Position numbers and translations under genes: made by a program. From a virus, in the IMG/VR virus record IMGVR_UViG_3300034072_001189, positions 1 through 21,989 of that record: DNA of 21,989 nucleotides. One strand, 5' to 3'. Position 1 is the first letter of the stretch. The number at the start of each line of letters is the position of its first letter. Shown here one piece after another: positions 6,309-16,064 of this stretch. The notes beneath the pieces are model-generated. The model saw only the letters and a list, made by a program, of their open reading frames with translations, did not search any database and was not told where the DNA came from.

Positions 6309-8123
6309 TCAACAGAACCGGATGCCGCGCGAGGCATATACCGACTTCTTCTTGGGCTTTACCGTCGCTGTGGCGGCGCCGACCGCCATTACGATGGTCA
6401 CCATGCCGTCGATGCGTCCGCGTGATTTCTTCTTGTTGAACATGCGATTGCCCATGCCGTCCGGCTCGATATGGGCATTGGCAGCGCAGGAGTAGGTGAC
6501 CGGAGAATCGTCCACCAACAGCGTCCCGTCGAGAATGCGATCCTCGGTGCGCGTGATCGAGTGCGGCATACACAGCTGCCGGTCTTCGAACATGATGCGC
6601 TGACCCTGCGCGTGCTTGACGATCTTGAGGCCGCGACCCTCCGGTTTGCCGGGGCCTTCCCATATCCACCATAGGATGCCGACCTGGTCGCAGGCGTCGG
6701 TGAACGACGTCAGGAAGGCCGGATCGACAACCAGTGCCTCAACGTCATGCTCGGCGAGTTGCTGCTGCACCTGAACGGCGACGAACGTGTAGTCGATCGT
6801 CGCGCCGGGCGTCGCGGTCAGATAATTGTCCTCGACCCAATCCAGATAGGGCGCCTTGTCGGCGTCGGCCCTTTCTTCAAGCCCGTCCCGCGTGGTCCAA
6901 TACCATGTCTTGACCGCAACCAGATCATCGGGAAGCTCCCACGCCTGCGACAAGGCCGTGAGGTCGTTCTTCTCCGACAAGTCCAGCGACAGCCACGATT
7001 TGCGGCCCCGCATGGCGCGGGCATCAACCACGCCCTGCACCGCCGACCATTTCTCTTCGCTGATCCAGAAGTCGGCCGCTGCGCTGTCGATGCCGAAATA
7101 CAGGCGCTTGACGCTCGATTTCGTAGACGGGCGGAGCTTGGCAGAATTCACCGTCTCGCGGATGTTCTCGATCGGGAAGGTTTCGCCCAGCGCCGGGAGC
7201 GACTTCTGCCAGGCGCGTTCATTCTCGAATATGGTTTCGCGGTCACCCTTGTCGATGCGGGCGATGAATGCGAAGGCCGTGTCGTCCTTGGCCTCGCCCT
7301 TCACGATCGCCTGATAGGTGTCCGAATAGGATGTCCCAACATGCTGCGTCGAACGCGCGGGCGTGTTGGTGCCCAGCAGCATCAGCGCATTGCCGGCGAC
7401 CTTGTCGATCGCCGCCTTCCATGTCAGCAGTGCGGCTTCCGATTTCAGCTCGTGGATTTCGTCCGCCGCCACAAGGGAGGGGCGGGGACCAGACTGCGAT
7501 TCCCCGCTGGCAATCGGCATGAAGAACGAGCCGCTATCCGGATGCTCGATCTTCCAGGCGTTTTCCAGTTCGCCGCGAATGATGACTTCGCCAAGGCCCT
7601 CCAGGCTCTCACCCTCTTCGCCATTCGGGATATCAGCTCGGCACATGGCAACGGCATCGCGAAAGAGGACGTTTGCCGTCGCCTTATCCTCGCCGATCGC
7701 ATAGCACTGCGCGCGTGGAATGTCGCACCAGCCCATGATGTAGACGCCGATCGCGCCCATCAGCGGCGACTTTGCCTGACCCTTTCCGGTTTCGATCCAG
7801 CCAGTGCGGAAGCGCCAGCGGTTTGTGTTGGTGCGCCAGCCGAATAGGCTGCCGCCGACGAAGCTATGATATTCCAGCGGATAGAAGGGTTCGCCGGCTG
7901 CCAGGCCGTCCGTAACCTGAAAGACCGATGGCAGGAAGTTTAGGAAATGCGCCGCCGCCTCCGGCCGCCAGTAAATCCCGCGCCGCTCGCCATCGCGAAT
8001 GTCGCGAAGGTGCCGTTCGGCTGCATGGCGCACCAGCTCGCCGCAAGTAAACAGCTTTCCTTCGACTGCAGCCTTTGCCCAGGCGGTGGTCGGGTCAGGA
8101 TCAGAGAGAAAGCGGTTAACCAC
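6309..8123 (-). CDS. terL: Terminase large subunit (TerL)
   Basis: A 604-aa DNA-packaging motor with both expected domains. ATPase: Walker A variant ETGKGQAKS at 111-119 and Walker B LVAADEIHE at 217-225, with the 'TNTPA' coupling segment at 252-256. Nuclease: the three acidic positions are visible as D381 (SLDLS), D467 (VVDPAF) and D572 (RIDGMVT). The length matches the Terminase_1 branch that pairs with P27-type small subunits. The only sensible start is GTG at 8123, overlapping the TerS stop by 8 bases; the next Met is beyond residue 120. It sits between TerS and portal, the standard packaging order. Confidence 0.95.
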   Translation of the reverse strand: MVNRFLSDPDPTTAWAKAAVEGKLFTCGELVRHAAERHLRDIRDGERRGIYWRPEAAAHFLNFLPSVFQVTDGLAAGEPFYPLEYHSFVGGSLFGWRTNTNRWRFRTGWIETGKGQAKSPLMGAIGVYIMGWCDIPRAQCYAIGEDKATANVLFRDAVAMCRADIPNGEEGESLEGLGEVIIRGELENAWKIEHPDSGSFFMPIASGESQSGPRPSLVAADEIHELKSEAALLTWKAAIDKVAGNALMLLGTNTPARSTQHVGTSYSDTYQAIVKGEAKDDTAFAFIARIDKGDRETIFENERAWQKSLPALGETFPIENIRETVNSAKLRPSTKSSVKRLYFGIDSAAADFWISEEKWSAVQGVVDARAMRGRKSWLSLDLSEKNDLTALSQAWELPDDLVAVKTWYWTTRDGLEERADADKAPYLDWVEDNYLTATPGATIDYTFVAVQVQQQLAEHDVEALVVDPAFLTSFTDACDQVGILWWIWEGPGKPEGRGLKIVKHAQGQRIMFEDRQLCMPHSITRTEDRILDGTLLVDDSPVTYSCAANAHIEPDGMGNRMFNKKKSRGRIDGMVTIVMAVGAATATVKPKKKSVYASRGIRFC

Positions 8124-8544
8124 GGCTCTTCAGGTAACCGCCGCCGGTTTGCCGCCGCGCCTTCTTCTCGACCTTGGTCCCGTTGCCACGGTCCCGCGGC
8201 GAAACGCACAGTTCCTTTTCCAGCGCCTGAGCGTGGCTGGCGGCGTTGCTCATGGTCGTCCACCATGGGTTATAGGTGGGGACGCCGGTTTTCTTGGCTT
8301 TGATGACCGGCCCCATTTTCAGCACTTCCCGCGCTGAAATGTCATAGGTCACATAGGCAACGACCAGCCGCTTGATCGAATGAGCGTTCGCGACGGCTAG
8401 CTTTTCGGCAGCGCGCAGGTCGCTGATTATCGCCTTCCAATATTCTGAAGCGGCGGCCCGGTCTGGTGCCCGGCCGAAGGTGGCCCGCCAGTTCGGCTCG
8501 GGCGGGACGCCATCGCCGCCTGGCAGTTCGACAAGTTCAGCCAT
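8116..8544 (-). CDS. terS: Terminase small subunit (P27 family)
   Basis: A 142-aa protein with the P27-like small terminase layout: 'PPEPNWRATFG' lead-in, then helical 'AASEYWKAIISDLRAAEKLAVANAHSIKRLVVAYVTYD', the 'GPVIKAKKTGVPTYNPWWTTMSNAASHAQALEKEL' block (the 'G.v......g.......p........' and terminal helix of the family), and a basic C-terminus. It recognises the packaging site and regulates TerL. ATG 8544 has GGAGGTCG upstream. The 118-base gap before it holds the GC palindrome and is the natural place to look for cos. Confidence 0.9.
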   Translation of the reverse strand: MAELVELPGGDGVPPEPNWRATFGRAPDRAAASEYWKAIISDLRAAEKLAVANAHSIKRLVVAYVTYDISAREVLKMGPVIKAKKTGVPTYNPWWTTMSNAASHAQALEKELCVSPRDRGNGTKVEKKARRQTGGGYLKSRG

Positions 8545-8662: not shown

Positions 8663-8995
8663 CTATGACCTGTTCCATGGATGGTCGGCACTCGTCGGGC
8701 GACCATCATGCCCGATGCCCTTGGCTTTGACCGGCTCTGCGTGTCCGAACTGCTCGGCAGTGACATCATTATGGCAGGGGGTACATAAATTGCGCGTGTT
8801 ATCGTCGTCGTCGCTACCACCCAACGCGAGGGGCTGAATGTGGTCTACGACGGTGGCGAATGTGGTCAGGCCCTTGGCATCGCAGCGCTCGCAAAGTCCG
8901 TCAGTGCGGGCGAGGCGGCGCTTGCGTTGCTCCTGACCAGCGCGACCCCGAAGGCGTTCGGTGCGTTCGCCACGGAGAGGATGATTGTTCTGCAT
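8663..8995 (-). CDS. HNH endonuclease (packaging-associated)
   Basis: A 110-aa HNH nuclease. The two CxxC zinc knuckles are C35/C38 and C71/C74. Between them 'VVDHIQPLALGGSDDDDNTRNLC' supplies D51-H52 (catalytic His) and the Asn residues, and H75 follows the second CxxC, giving the complete beta-beta-alpha-metal motif. In HK97 and many cos phages an equivalent protein next to TerS assists terminase cleavage at cos. The start overlaps the upstream stop by one base (TGATG). The basic 25-residue N-terminal tail is typical. Confidence 0.92.
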   Translation of the reverse strand: MQNNHPLRGERTERLRGRAGQEQRKRRLARTDGLCERCDAKGLTTFATVVDHIQPLALGGSDDDDNTRNLCTPCHNDVTAEQFGHAEPVKAKGIGHDGRPTSADHPWNRS

Positions 8996-9278: not shown

Positions 9279-9602
9279 ATGATTCGATACATTGTTGTGG
9301 CCGCAGCGTTATGGCCTTCGTCTGCAATCGCAAAGCCTATCACTCTGAAGTGCGAACTAGATGATCGCGGATCACCTCTGGTGATGGACGTGGCTTTGGA
9401 TGAGGATGCAGGTACGGCCAGCTATATTTCAGCGCGTAATAATATGCCGGTCAAAAGATCGGCGATATTCTTACCTAGTACCGTATCGTTTGCCGCGTTC
9501 ACTATCGATCGCACCTCGCTCGCAATCACGAGAGAACCGATCTCGGACATTCCGTCTATCAGCGGCACTTGCTCGGTCGTGGAGATCAAGCGAGCATTCT
9601 GA
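9279..9602 (+). CDS. Exported small protein, moron-like (possible lysogenic conversion gene)
   Basis: A 107-aa protein with a clear Sec signal peptide: R3, a hydrophobic core, and a likely cut after the Ala at 18 (SAIA|KP). The mature part is about 89 residues with exactly two Cys (25 and 98), which could form one disulphide. It ends in a segment 'ISGTCSVVE' typical of small secreted hypothetical proteins of alphaproteobacteria. It lies on the strand opposite to both neighbouring operons, between late genes and tRNAs, and its base composition looks less GC-rich than the late genes. GGAAAGAGG precedes ATG 9279. Function is unknown; acting in the host periplasm during lysogeny is inference. Confidence 0.7.
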   Translation: MIRYIVVAAALWPSSAIAKPITLKCELDDRGSPLVMDVALDEDAGTASYISARNNMPVKRSAIFLPSTVSFAAFTIDRTSLAITREPISDIPSISGTCSVVEIKRAF

Positions 9603-9612
9603 CCCTTGTAAC

Positions 9613-9689
9613 TGGTTGCCACAGCGGGATTTGAACCCGCGACCTTCAGCTTATGAGGCTGACGAGCTACCGGACTGCTCTATGCGGCT
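9613..9689 (-). tRNA. Initiator-like tRNA-fMet (anticodon CAU), CCA encoded
   Basis: A full cloverleaf is readable on the minus strand: acceptor AGCCGCA/TGTGGCA, D-arm GAGC-AGTCCGGTA-GCTC, anticodon arm TCAGC-CTCATAA-GCTGA (CAT at 9655-9653), variable AGGTC, T-arm GCGGG-TTCAAAT-CCCGC, discriminator A and encoded CCA (9615-9613). Three initiator traits are present: an unpaired 1:72 (A:A), the A11:U24 D-stem pair, and a nine-base D-loop matching bacterial fMet tRNA. The fourth trait, three consecutive G:C pairs in the anticodon stem, is broken: 29:41 is A:U, 30:40 is G:C and 31:39 is C:G. It follows the tRNA-Thr with a 1-base gap. An elongator Met or Ile2 role cannot be fully excluded. Confidence 0.9.
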
Positions 9690-9690
9690 A

Positions 9691-9765
9691 TGGTGCTAGG
9701 AGAGGGACTTGAACTCTCAACCGACCGCTTACAAGGCGGCTGCTCTACCGTTGAGCTACCCCAGC
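9691..9765 (-). tRNA. tRNA-Thr (anticodon UGU), CCA encoded
   Basis: Read on the minus strand: acceptor GCTGGGG/TCCTAGC (two G:U pairs), D-arm GCTC-AACGGTA-GAGC, anticodon arm GCCGC-CTTGTAA-GCGGT (TGT at 9733-9731), variable CGGTT, T-arm GAGAG-TTCAAGT-CCCTC, discriminator A and encoded CCA. The T-stem has one mismatch (A52 against C62) and the anticodon stem has a G27:U43 wobble. It reads ACA, plus ACG by wobble; ACA is usually scarce in genomes this rich in GC. It is the upstream member of a two-tRNA unit with the fMet-like gene. Confidence 0.92.
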
Positions 9766-9807: not shown

Positions 9808-9984
9808 ATGACCACACCGGATGATGTGAATTATCTGTTGCGGCGCGCGCAGCAGGAGGCTCGCAAAGCCAAAGAGGCCCTACAGAGGGGCGACCACATC
9901 ATGGCTGTGTATGCCCATCGCGAATTGGCTACCCGATACGAGGCAACCGCTGCCTGCATCGCAAGGGAATTAACGAAGCACTGA
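9808..9984 (+). CDS. Small helical phage protein of unknown function
   Basis: A 58-aa, largely alpha-helical protein (begins MTTPDDVNYLLRRAQQEARKAKEALQ) with charged heptad-like spacing that could form a helical hairpin around the 'RGDH' turn. ATG 9808 is preferred to an upstream in-frame start because GGGAGGTGAT lies immediately before it and the longer frame would run through the tRNA-Thr gene. It stands alone on the plus strand, facing the replication operon across a bidirectional terminator at 9989-10019. No family is recognised. The small Ala/Arg/Glu-rich composition resembles other short sphingomonad phage proteins. Confidence 0.65.
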   Translation: MTTPDDVNYLLRRAQQEARKAKEALQRGDHIMAVYAHRELATRYEATAACIARELTKH

Positions 9985-15072: not shown

Positions 15073-15291
15073 TCACTCCGCCTCAGCGGGAATGGGATAA
15101 ATATCAGGTCGCAGAAGATGGCGGCTGATACCGGTCCCAGCCTCCGCCGCAAGGACGTAGTCAGCGGGCAGATGCTTGCCCGCCTGCAACCAGTTCCAGA
15201 CACGCTGTTGAGACACGCCAATGATCCGCCCAAAGGCGGTTTGACCGTTCGCGGCCACGATCGCGGCCTGAAATGCTTCATAAGGGGACAT
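15073..15291 (-). CDS. Cro-like YdaS-family HTH regulator
   Basis: A 72-aa protein with the YdaS/Cro layout: 'AIVAANGQTAFGRIIGVSQQRVWNWLQAGKHLPADYVLAAEAGTGISRHLLRPDIYP'. The helix-turn-helix is residues 18-37 and the terminal RPDIYP is the family signature. As the first leftward gene, divergent from the CI gene, it is the expected antagonist of CI that shifts the phage to lytic growth. There is no ribosome binding site before ATG 15291, and the predicted -10 box lies only about ten bases upstream, so the messenger is probably leaderless or nearly so. Confidence 0.92.
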   Translation of the reverse strand: MSPYEAFQAAIVAANGQTAFGRIIGVSQQRVWNWLQAGKHLPADYVLAAEAGTGISRHLLRPDIYPIPAEAE

Positions 15292-15328: not shown

Positions 15329-15340
15329 CAAGAATATTGT
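15304..15340. promoter_or_regulatory. Left operator: tandem ACCAG half-sites plus CAACAA...TTGT element
   Basis: TTAACCAG (15304-15311) and TTTACCAG (15314-15321) are direct repeats, followed by CAACAAG-AATA-TTGT (15327-15340). The same element types recur beyond the CI gene. This cro-cI intergenic region is the expected CI/Cro operator. Confidence 0.65.
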
Positions 15341-15377
15341 GATACCGCACCTGCGAAAGCGGGGCTATGACAATTTT

Positions 15378-16064
15378 ATGCGTCAGACTGAAACCGATTA
15401 CGTGCAAAACATGGCCAACTTTTTCCGCGAGGAGCGGATTAAGCTGGGATGGTCCACGAAAGAGCTCGCCGAAGCGGCACGGGCTATAGCCATGCGCGAA
15501 GGGCGTTCGATCTCGCTTTCGCAGCAGACCATATCCGCTTTCGAGCAGGGCAAAGCAAAGCGCGCTCCCAGTTGGGCGCAGTATGTTGCGAGCGCTTTGG
15601 GCAATGGTGCGCTGGCCGCAAAGGAGTTCGAATCCTTCGAGGAAATCGGCCAAAGGTCCGTGCTGGTTGAATGCCTCCCCACTTACGCCGGCGCCGGCGG
15701 CGGTGGGACGGGCGAAGGCGATGTTCCTCAGATTTCCTTCTCGCGAGATCTGGTGGAATATGAACTTCGCGCTACGCCAGCCGACCTCGTGGCCATCCAG
15801 ATTGAGGGAAACTCAATGGACCCGGATTTCCAGTCAGGCGATCAGTTGCTCGTGGATAAGCGCAAGCGAACGCTTGCCCAGCCTGGCGCCTTTTGCCTGT
15901 GGGACGGCGACGGCTACGTCGTCAAATATCTGGAGAAGATACCCGGATCGGAGCCTCAGAAGGTTCGGGTCATCAGTCGGAATGAGATATTTTCGACCTC
16001 AGAGAGATTGGCTGAGGAAATCAGCATCTTAGGTCGGGTAGTCTGGTTCGCCCGTCGCGTCTGA
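15378..16064 (+). CDS. CI-like repressor with S24 (LexA/UmuD-type) self-cleavage domain
   Basis: A 228-aa protein from ATG 15378 (GTG 15339 and ATG 15411 are alternatives; none has a good ribosome binding site). An XRE-type HTH lies near residues 18-60 ('EERIKLGWSTKELAEAARAI...SLSQQTISAFEQGK'). A hinge carries the Ala-Gly dipeptide expected for autocleavage (YAGAG, about 103-107 in this numbering). The S24 domain has Ser146 in EGNSMDP and Lys183 in VVKYL as the catalytic pair. The set implies RecA-stimulated inactivation and SOS induction. It is divergent from cro; operators flank it on both sides. Confidence 0.93.
   Translation: MRQTETDYVQNMANFFREERIKLGWSTKELAEAARAIAMREGRSISLSQQTISAFEQGKAKRAPSWAQYVASALGNGALAAKEFESFEEIGQRSVLVECLPTYAGAGGGGTGEGDVPQISFSRDLVEYELRATPADLVAIQIEGNSMDPDFQSGDQLLVDKRKRTLAQPGAFCLWDGDGYVVKYLEKIPGSEPQKVRVISRNEIFSTSERLAEEISILGRVVWFARRV

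Follow-up and report, generated by a model that had tools for sequence, protein, structure and literature searches.

An initiator-like tRNA encoded by a probable temperate phage retains the middle G:C pair of its anticodon stem

A virus record of 21,989 bases (IMGVR_UViG_3300034072_001189), analysed over its full length and referred to here as the window, carries a 77-nt initiator-like tRNA gene with a CAU anticodon at positions 9613..9689 on the minus strand. There is no sequence in the record beyond the window. We consider it likely, judging from the sequence, that this gene encodes a working initiator tRNA supplied by the phage, probably together with its packaging and structural genes. Our direct observations are of features in the tRNA sequence, of compensated pairing in its stems, of a pattern of conservation across phages and of the gene's position upstream of the terminase.

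ARAGORN reports a tRNA-Met(cat) at exactly 9613-9689 on the minus strand, the Rfam tRNA model scores this segment at 64 bits (gathering score 29; E 4.8e-12), and the minimum-energy structure predicted by RNAfold is a full cloverleaf, with a z of -2.4. Positions in the tRNA were numbered both by hand and by script, and the base identities given in the initial annotation all proved correct. The acceptor stem begins with a mismatch, A1:A72, and continues with G2:C71, C3:G70, C4:G69, G5:U68, C6:G67 and A7:U66; C4:G69 and G5:U68 are unusual for an initiator. The 5' strand of the anticodon stem (positions 27-31, U C A G C) lies at 9658..9662 (minus strand) and the 3' strand (positions 39-43, G C U G A) at 9646..9650 (minus strand). 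The three pairs most relevant to initiators are therefore A29:U41, G30:C40 and C31:G39, in which G39 is a virus-typical change. The initial annotation was silent on the intact G30:C40. Elsewhere, the tRNA has A11:U24, the anticodon loop CUCAUAA, A57, A73 and an encoded CCA.

The phage tRNA aligns without gaps over its 77 nt to E. coli metZ (59/77 identical) and to an alphaproteobacterial initiator (61/77 identical). In contrast, elongator tRNA-Met (metT, metU) and tRNA-Ile2 (ileX) are without A11:U24, and gaps in the D and anticodon arms are needed to align them. An alignment with fMet genes, proposed in the initial annotation and conducted here with E. coli and alphaproteobacterial genes as references, thus favours an initiator over elongator Met or Ile2, and we agree with that annotation that the gene descends from an initiator tRNA. 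Of the evidence that it cited, the 1:72 mismatch and A11:U24 stand. However, the CTCATAA loop is no sign of an initiator; the same loop occurs in E. coli metT, metU and ileX, and is therefore not diagnostic.

A comparison of individual marks leads in the same direction. The phage tRNA has a mismatch at 1:72, G2:C71, C3:G70, A11:U24, the CAU anticodon, A73 and the 3' CCA, all of which mark initiators. The first four of these are the features that a review associates with formylation (PMC7949028), and all four are found. The initiator mark that it lacks is the run of three consecutive G:C pairs at 29:41, 30:40 and 31:39, where it has A:U, G:C and C:G, with 30:40 alone kept. Elongator marks are absent. 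Position 1:72, which is paired in elongators (metT, metU and ileX begin with GG and end with CC before A73), is A1:A72, and the D arm reads GAGC...GCUC rather than the GCTC...GAGC of metT and ileX.

There are 16 differences between the phage tRNA and the alphaproteobacterial initiator. In six stem pairs (4:69, 6:67, 7:66, 31:39, 50:64 and 51:63) both bases differ yet pairing is preserved; one G:C has become G:U, no pair is broken, and positions 9 and 16 carry single-site changes. At 1:72, the C:A of the alphaproteobacterial initiator is A:A in the phage, so the mismatch is retained. Because the stem changes are compensated and no pair is broken, the gene appears to be under constraint. Together with the held mismatch, these compensated changes argue for a working initiator, and not for a relic or an elongator.

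It is very unlikely that an initiator was here converted into an elongator Met tRNA or an Ile2 tRNA reading AUA. Such a conversion would be compatible with the CUCAUAA loop, which is common to both, and with C4:G69, which is shared with Ile2. However, the tRNA retains A1:A72 and A11:U24, the elongators align to it only with gaps, related viral tRNAs have never formed a G:C at 1:72, and AUA is scarce in the phage, accounting for 13 of 220 Ile codons. We rejected an elongator Met or Ile2 identity on the alignment and the numbering comparison. Codon compensation for Met was also rejected, as it gives no reason for the initiator features.

Less probable still, and already disfavoured, is that the gene was captured and is decaying, or that it is a remnant of a host initiator left at an attachment site. 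To judge by the sequences, decay of the tRNA does occur in this family, as a relative by its large terminase subunit (TerL), L293, has at the same place an initiator with broken acceptor pairs, but it does not appear to have affected the tRNA at 9613-9689. There, every stem change is compensated, and the tRNA of a sister phage, IMGVR_UViG_2548876536_000004 (L015/L277), is identical. An attachment-site remnant was rejected on the grounds that the gene is full-length, lies mid-genome beside a tRNA-Thr and has a 3' half unlike host-type initiators. Host contamination was rejected given the same tRNA in the sister phage and the phage genes that flank it.

To judge how unusual the anticodon stem is, cellular initiators are the relevant comparison. 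In unselected genomes from the class of Rhizobium genome G006, the initiators listed read A-G-G with G31:C39 almost throughout, with one G-G-G, and in the class of Achromobacter 25 of 25 unselected matches read G-G-G. (Genomes G006 and G012 each have a second, altered initiator copy, the basis on which both were found.) Since A29:U41 is the norm in alphaproteobacterial initiators, it is ordinary there; in sequence terms, the odd feature of the phage stem is C31:G39. The initial annotation regarded the run of three G:C pairs as broken, and 29:41 and 31:39 are indeed changed. However, the initiator signal is not simply broken, given that G30:C40 is intact and A29:U41 is the alphaproteobacterial norm. 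In the ribosome, G30-C40 is contacted by A1339 of 16S rRNA (type I A-minor) and 29-41 by G1338 (type II), but nothing comparable is described for 31:39 (PMC11497404). With the most contacted pair intact, "degenerate" is too strong a label for this stem, whose P-site mark appears to be lost only in part. E. coli initiators in which all three G:C pairs were replaced by elongator sequence initiate poorly (PMC7949028), but the phage tRNA is not that three-pair mutant.

A changed 31:39 is found mainly in viruses. One search pattern requiring it matched 95 stretches in IMG/VR versus 23 in about 85,000 cellular genomes, which is a contrast of counts and not of rates per base; because such patterns require a conserved core and overlook initiators that have diverged, the counts are lower bounds. 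The 23 cellular matches include natural exceptions, namely Ureaplasma and Mycoplasmataceae, and Azambacteria. Initiators of Ureaplasma and Mycoplasmataceae (L254, L258, L259 and L269) have a U31:U39 mismatch with A29:U41 and keep G30:C40, and the Azambacteria initiator has U31:G39 and also keeps G30:C40. Based on neighbouring phage genes, several of the 23 are prophage copies. A terminase lies beside the altered copy at three cellular loci (L256, L270 and L271), two of which (L270 and L271) also have a portal gene, and L266 has a phage-type DnaB helicase, with a TerL relative downstream. At L264 the one protein tested matched an ABC transporter only, and at L273 no PHROG match was found beside the altered copy. 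Several genomes with an altered copy also carry an ordinary initiator.

Among viruses, the changes follow a consistent pattern. Among the distinct viral sequences whose 31:39 is changed (67, on 35 different acceptor stems), a standard pair occupies that position in all 67 and G:C is kept at 30:40 in 65. C:G at 31:39 predominates (57/67) and G39 is present in 62/67, with few A:U or G:U intermediates. We also searched with the stem left free, obtaining 88 distinct viral cores, of which 66 have a changed 29:41, 21 a changed 31:39 and 5 a changed 30:40 (Fisher p 1e-22 for 29:41 vs 30:40 and 0.001 for 31:39 vs 30:40); because the sequences counted are not independent, the p-values do no more than describe the contrast. 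In this stem-free sample, 1:72 is never G:C or C:G in the 76 viral acceptors that are well paired. Variation at 29:41 and 31:39 with 30:40 held matches the 16S contacts, in which A1339 lies on G30-C40 (PMC11497404). The number of independent origins behind this pattern is not readable from 77 nt. Two further groups were seen in these searches. Viral initiator-like tRNAs with the loop UUCAUAC or UUCAUAA (L533-L584) have a changed C32 and often a changed A38, with G:C at 30:40 in 40 of 41 distinct cores. Initiators of rhizobial phages with the acceptor GTCGGxG, and their relatives (L119, L138, L145, L173, L264 and L266), have acceptor mismatches at both 1:72 and 2:71.

The initial annotation took phage initiator tRNAs to be uncommon, which is not the case. 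There are at least 120 matches in IMG/VR, and BLAST returned 187 phage records with a rhizobial-phage initiator as query and 55 with the phage tRNA of the window. In 24 representative isolates, 23 have at least one changed pair among 29:41, 30:40 and 31:39, 13 have a changed 31:39 and 23 keep G30:C40, although these proportions are biased to altered stems by BLAST queries that themselves had altered stems. The sole full G-G-G stem among the 24 is that of mycobacteriophage Erdmann (C1), and the initiator of Rhizobium phage RHph_TM3_3_3 has the same A-G-C stem as the window tRNA. Isolate annotations mostly read tRNA-Met, with fMet noted for CcrSC only, and a survey credits some prophages of S. 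meliloti with a tRNA-fMet (PMC12429752). We observed initiator-like tRNAs that are unannotated in the records of Vibrio phage nt-1 (L418), Clavibacter phage CN1A (L417), Agrobacterium phage Atu_ph07 (L423) and Aeromonas phage phiAS5 (L436). Phage initiator tRNAs are thus already known as annotations; a literature search on altered anticodon-stem pairs in phage initiators turned up no treatment of these stems, which does not prove that none exists.

Matches to PHROGs in the window include large and small terminase subunits, portal, major head protein, HNH endonuclease, DnaB-like helicase and repressor, and with this gene content the window is probably part of a tailed, temperate phage. A tRNA-Thr(UGU) gene (9691..9765, minus strand; ARAGORN, Rfam 63.1 bits) lies directly upstream in the same tRNA cassette, with one base between its end and the initiator-like tRNA. 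This tRNA-Thr differs from the sister phage copy by one base, at 66, which turns the 7:66 pair from G:C to G:U, and its T stem has one A:C mismatch. Downstream, all co-oriented on the minus strand, are genes for an HNH endonuclease (8663..8995; phrog_144, E 2.9e-20), the terminase small subunit (8116..8544; phrog_83, E 6.4e-13) and the terminase large subunit (6309..8123; phrog_9, E 1.5e-93), so that the order is tRNA-Thr, initiator, HNH, small terminase and large terminase, with the initiator about 1.5 kb upstream of the last. Two small plus-strand ORFs (9279-9602 and 9808-9984), neither with a Pfam match, lie on either side of the two minus-strand tRNA genes and resemble inserted accessory genes; the former has a signal-peptide-like start. 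Farther away, a YdaS-type toxin domain (PF15943) at 15073-15291 (minus strand) adjoins the repressor gene (15339-16064).

The sister phage is 98.4% identical over 10.7 kb, and no gene recognisable as the host's lies at the ends of its contig. More broadly, TerL is downstream and co-oriented in 18 of the 21 loci with a detectable TerL, and the altered tRNA is about 1.5-3.3 kb upstream of it; these loci represent at least three terminase families, with many from one rhizobial lineage. In TerL relatives (L277-L323), the same slot upstream of the terminase holds Gly(TCC), Thr(TGT) with Gly, Thr(CGT) or, in L293, the decaying initiator. The placement upstream of the terminase suggests that the tRNA is expressed late. 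A consensus scan found no sigma-70-like promoter near the tRNA. No near match to the window was found among phages or plasmids. The best phage match of TerL is to Azospirillum phage Cd, and in 385 genomes of the class of Rhizobium G006 it has matches of 34-35% only. We infer that the host is alphaproteobacterial, a class assignment to be read with the fact that even the best phage match of TerL reaches only 42%.

If the tRNA is a working initiator, its expected course can be outlined. It would be charged with Met given its CAU anticodon and A73, and formylated given the weak 1:72 position, G2:C71, C3:G70 and A11:U24. Entry into the P site would be expected from the intact G30:C40, which A1339 of 16S rRNA grips, with 29:41 and 31:39 freer to vary. 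Its supply of initiator would presumably fall in late phage translation.

Within this explanation, there are two accounts of why 31:39 changed, which we regard as about equally likely and hold only tentatively. In the first, selection favoured the change because the tRNA thereby goes unrecognised by host enzymes that cut initiators at the stem-loop border, and the phage tRNA replaces the destroyed host initiator. VapC toxins, one of them from the alphaproteobacterium Bosea, cleave initiators where the anticodon stem meets the loop, and growth is partly restored by additional initiator genes (PMC8522696). G39 adjoins the border cut by these initiator-specific VapC enzymes (PMC8522696), in a comparison where the host initiator is deduced from class-wide genomes and not from the actual host. 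The predominance of G39 with few intermediates also fits this account, as does the fact that A38, on the other side of the scissile bond, is changed instead in 17 distinct viral cores that keep C32. Moreover, phage elongator tRNAs with loop mutations have been predicted to resist nucleases (PMC10264068). However, the window phage's host has no known nuclease, C39 is retained by most phage initiators (only 21 of the 88 stem-free cores have a changed 31:39), and shared descent could explain the excess of C:G and may inflate the G39 count. Nuclease escape would be a plausible reason for the stem change, and replacement of a cleaved host fMet tRNA a plausible role. In the other account, the gene is a plain extra initiator for late translation, in which 29:41 and 31:39 drift and P-site selection proceeds mainly through G30:C40. 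The free variation of 29:41 but not of 30:40 in viruses, the retention of G30:C40 in the cellular exceptions (Ureaplasma with U31:U39, Azambacteria with U31:G39) and the location upstream of the terminase are all consistent with plain supply. However, drift should give many A:U and G:U pairs at 31:39, where C:G in fact dominates, and 31:39 is hardly ever changed in the sampled cellular genomes.

A broader proposal, about which we are somewhat doubtful, is that phages of many hosts carry an initiator class of their own, in which 29:41 and often 31:39 are rewritten and G30:C40 is held since it is sufficient for the P site, with the rewritten pairs concealing it from those host enzymes by which the cell's own initiator is destroyed or modified. 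We consider it unlikely that the altered stem serves to lower discrimination at initiation, allowing starts on non-AUG codons or on unusual 30S subunits. A swap of G30-C40 does reduce discrimination against CUG (PMC11497404), and 8 of the 18 tabulated genes in the window have a predicted GTG or TTG start. However, the pair with the published effect, 30:40, is unchanged in the phage tRNA, and GTG starts are common in GC-rich genomes. For the suggestion in the initial annotation that the tRNA might favour initiation at phage GTG/ATG starts, we found no evidence.

Returning to the preferred explanation of a phage-supplied working initiator, the tRNA can be placed relative to known systems. It resembles bacterial tRNA-fMet (E. 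coli metZ/W/V/Y and the alphaproteobacterial type) in its gap-free 77 nt, 1:72 mismatch, G2:C71, C3:G70, A11:U24, G30:C40, CAU, A73 and CCA. It differs in having C31:G39 instead of G31:C39, in replaced pairs at 4:69, 6:67 and 7:66, in A:A instead of C:A at 1:72, and in being phage-encoded beside a tRNA-Thr. Its initiator core is common to those of other phages, e.g., Sinorhizobium phiLM21 and phiLM21-like prophages of S. meliloti, RHph_TM3_3_3, Caulobacter CcrSC, Aeromonas Aeh1, Vibrio nt-1, Myrna and mycobacteriophages of cluster C1, although some of these keep G31:C39. Like the phage tRNA, cellular initiators without the full GGG/CCC (alphaproteobacteria, Ureaplasma, Mycoplasmataceae and Azambacteria) keep G30:C40, but these are apparently the cell's own genes, and C31:G39 is not their norm in the data seen. 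As with phage tRNAs proposed to evade anticodon nucleases (PMC10264068), the phage tRNA probably differs from that of the host in the region that such nucleases cut; here, however, it is the loop-closing stem pair that has changed, and the tRNA is of the initiator type. According to the same study, phages generally avoid this tRNA where VapC-LT2 targets it (PMC10264068).

Textbooks treat the three G:C pairs as marks of initiator tRNA in every domain of life. Phage initiators that retain chiefly the middle pair form a large natural set, in effect an evolutionary experiment on which pair matters, and its outcome is in line with the grip of A1339 on 30:40 seen in structures. The same set allows a direct test of the idea that phages swap the host initiator for a version resistant to cleavage by host toxins, and it includes laboratory-tractable examples in Caulobacter phages CcrSC and CcrColossus, Vibrio phage nt-1, mycobacteriophage Myrna and Rhizobium phage RHph_TM3_3_3.
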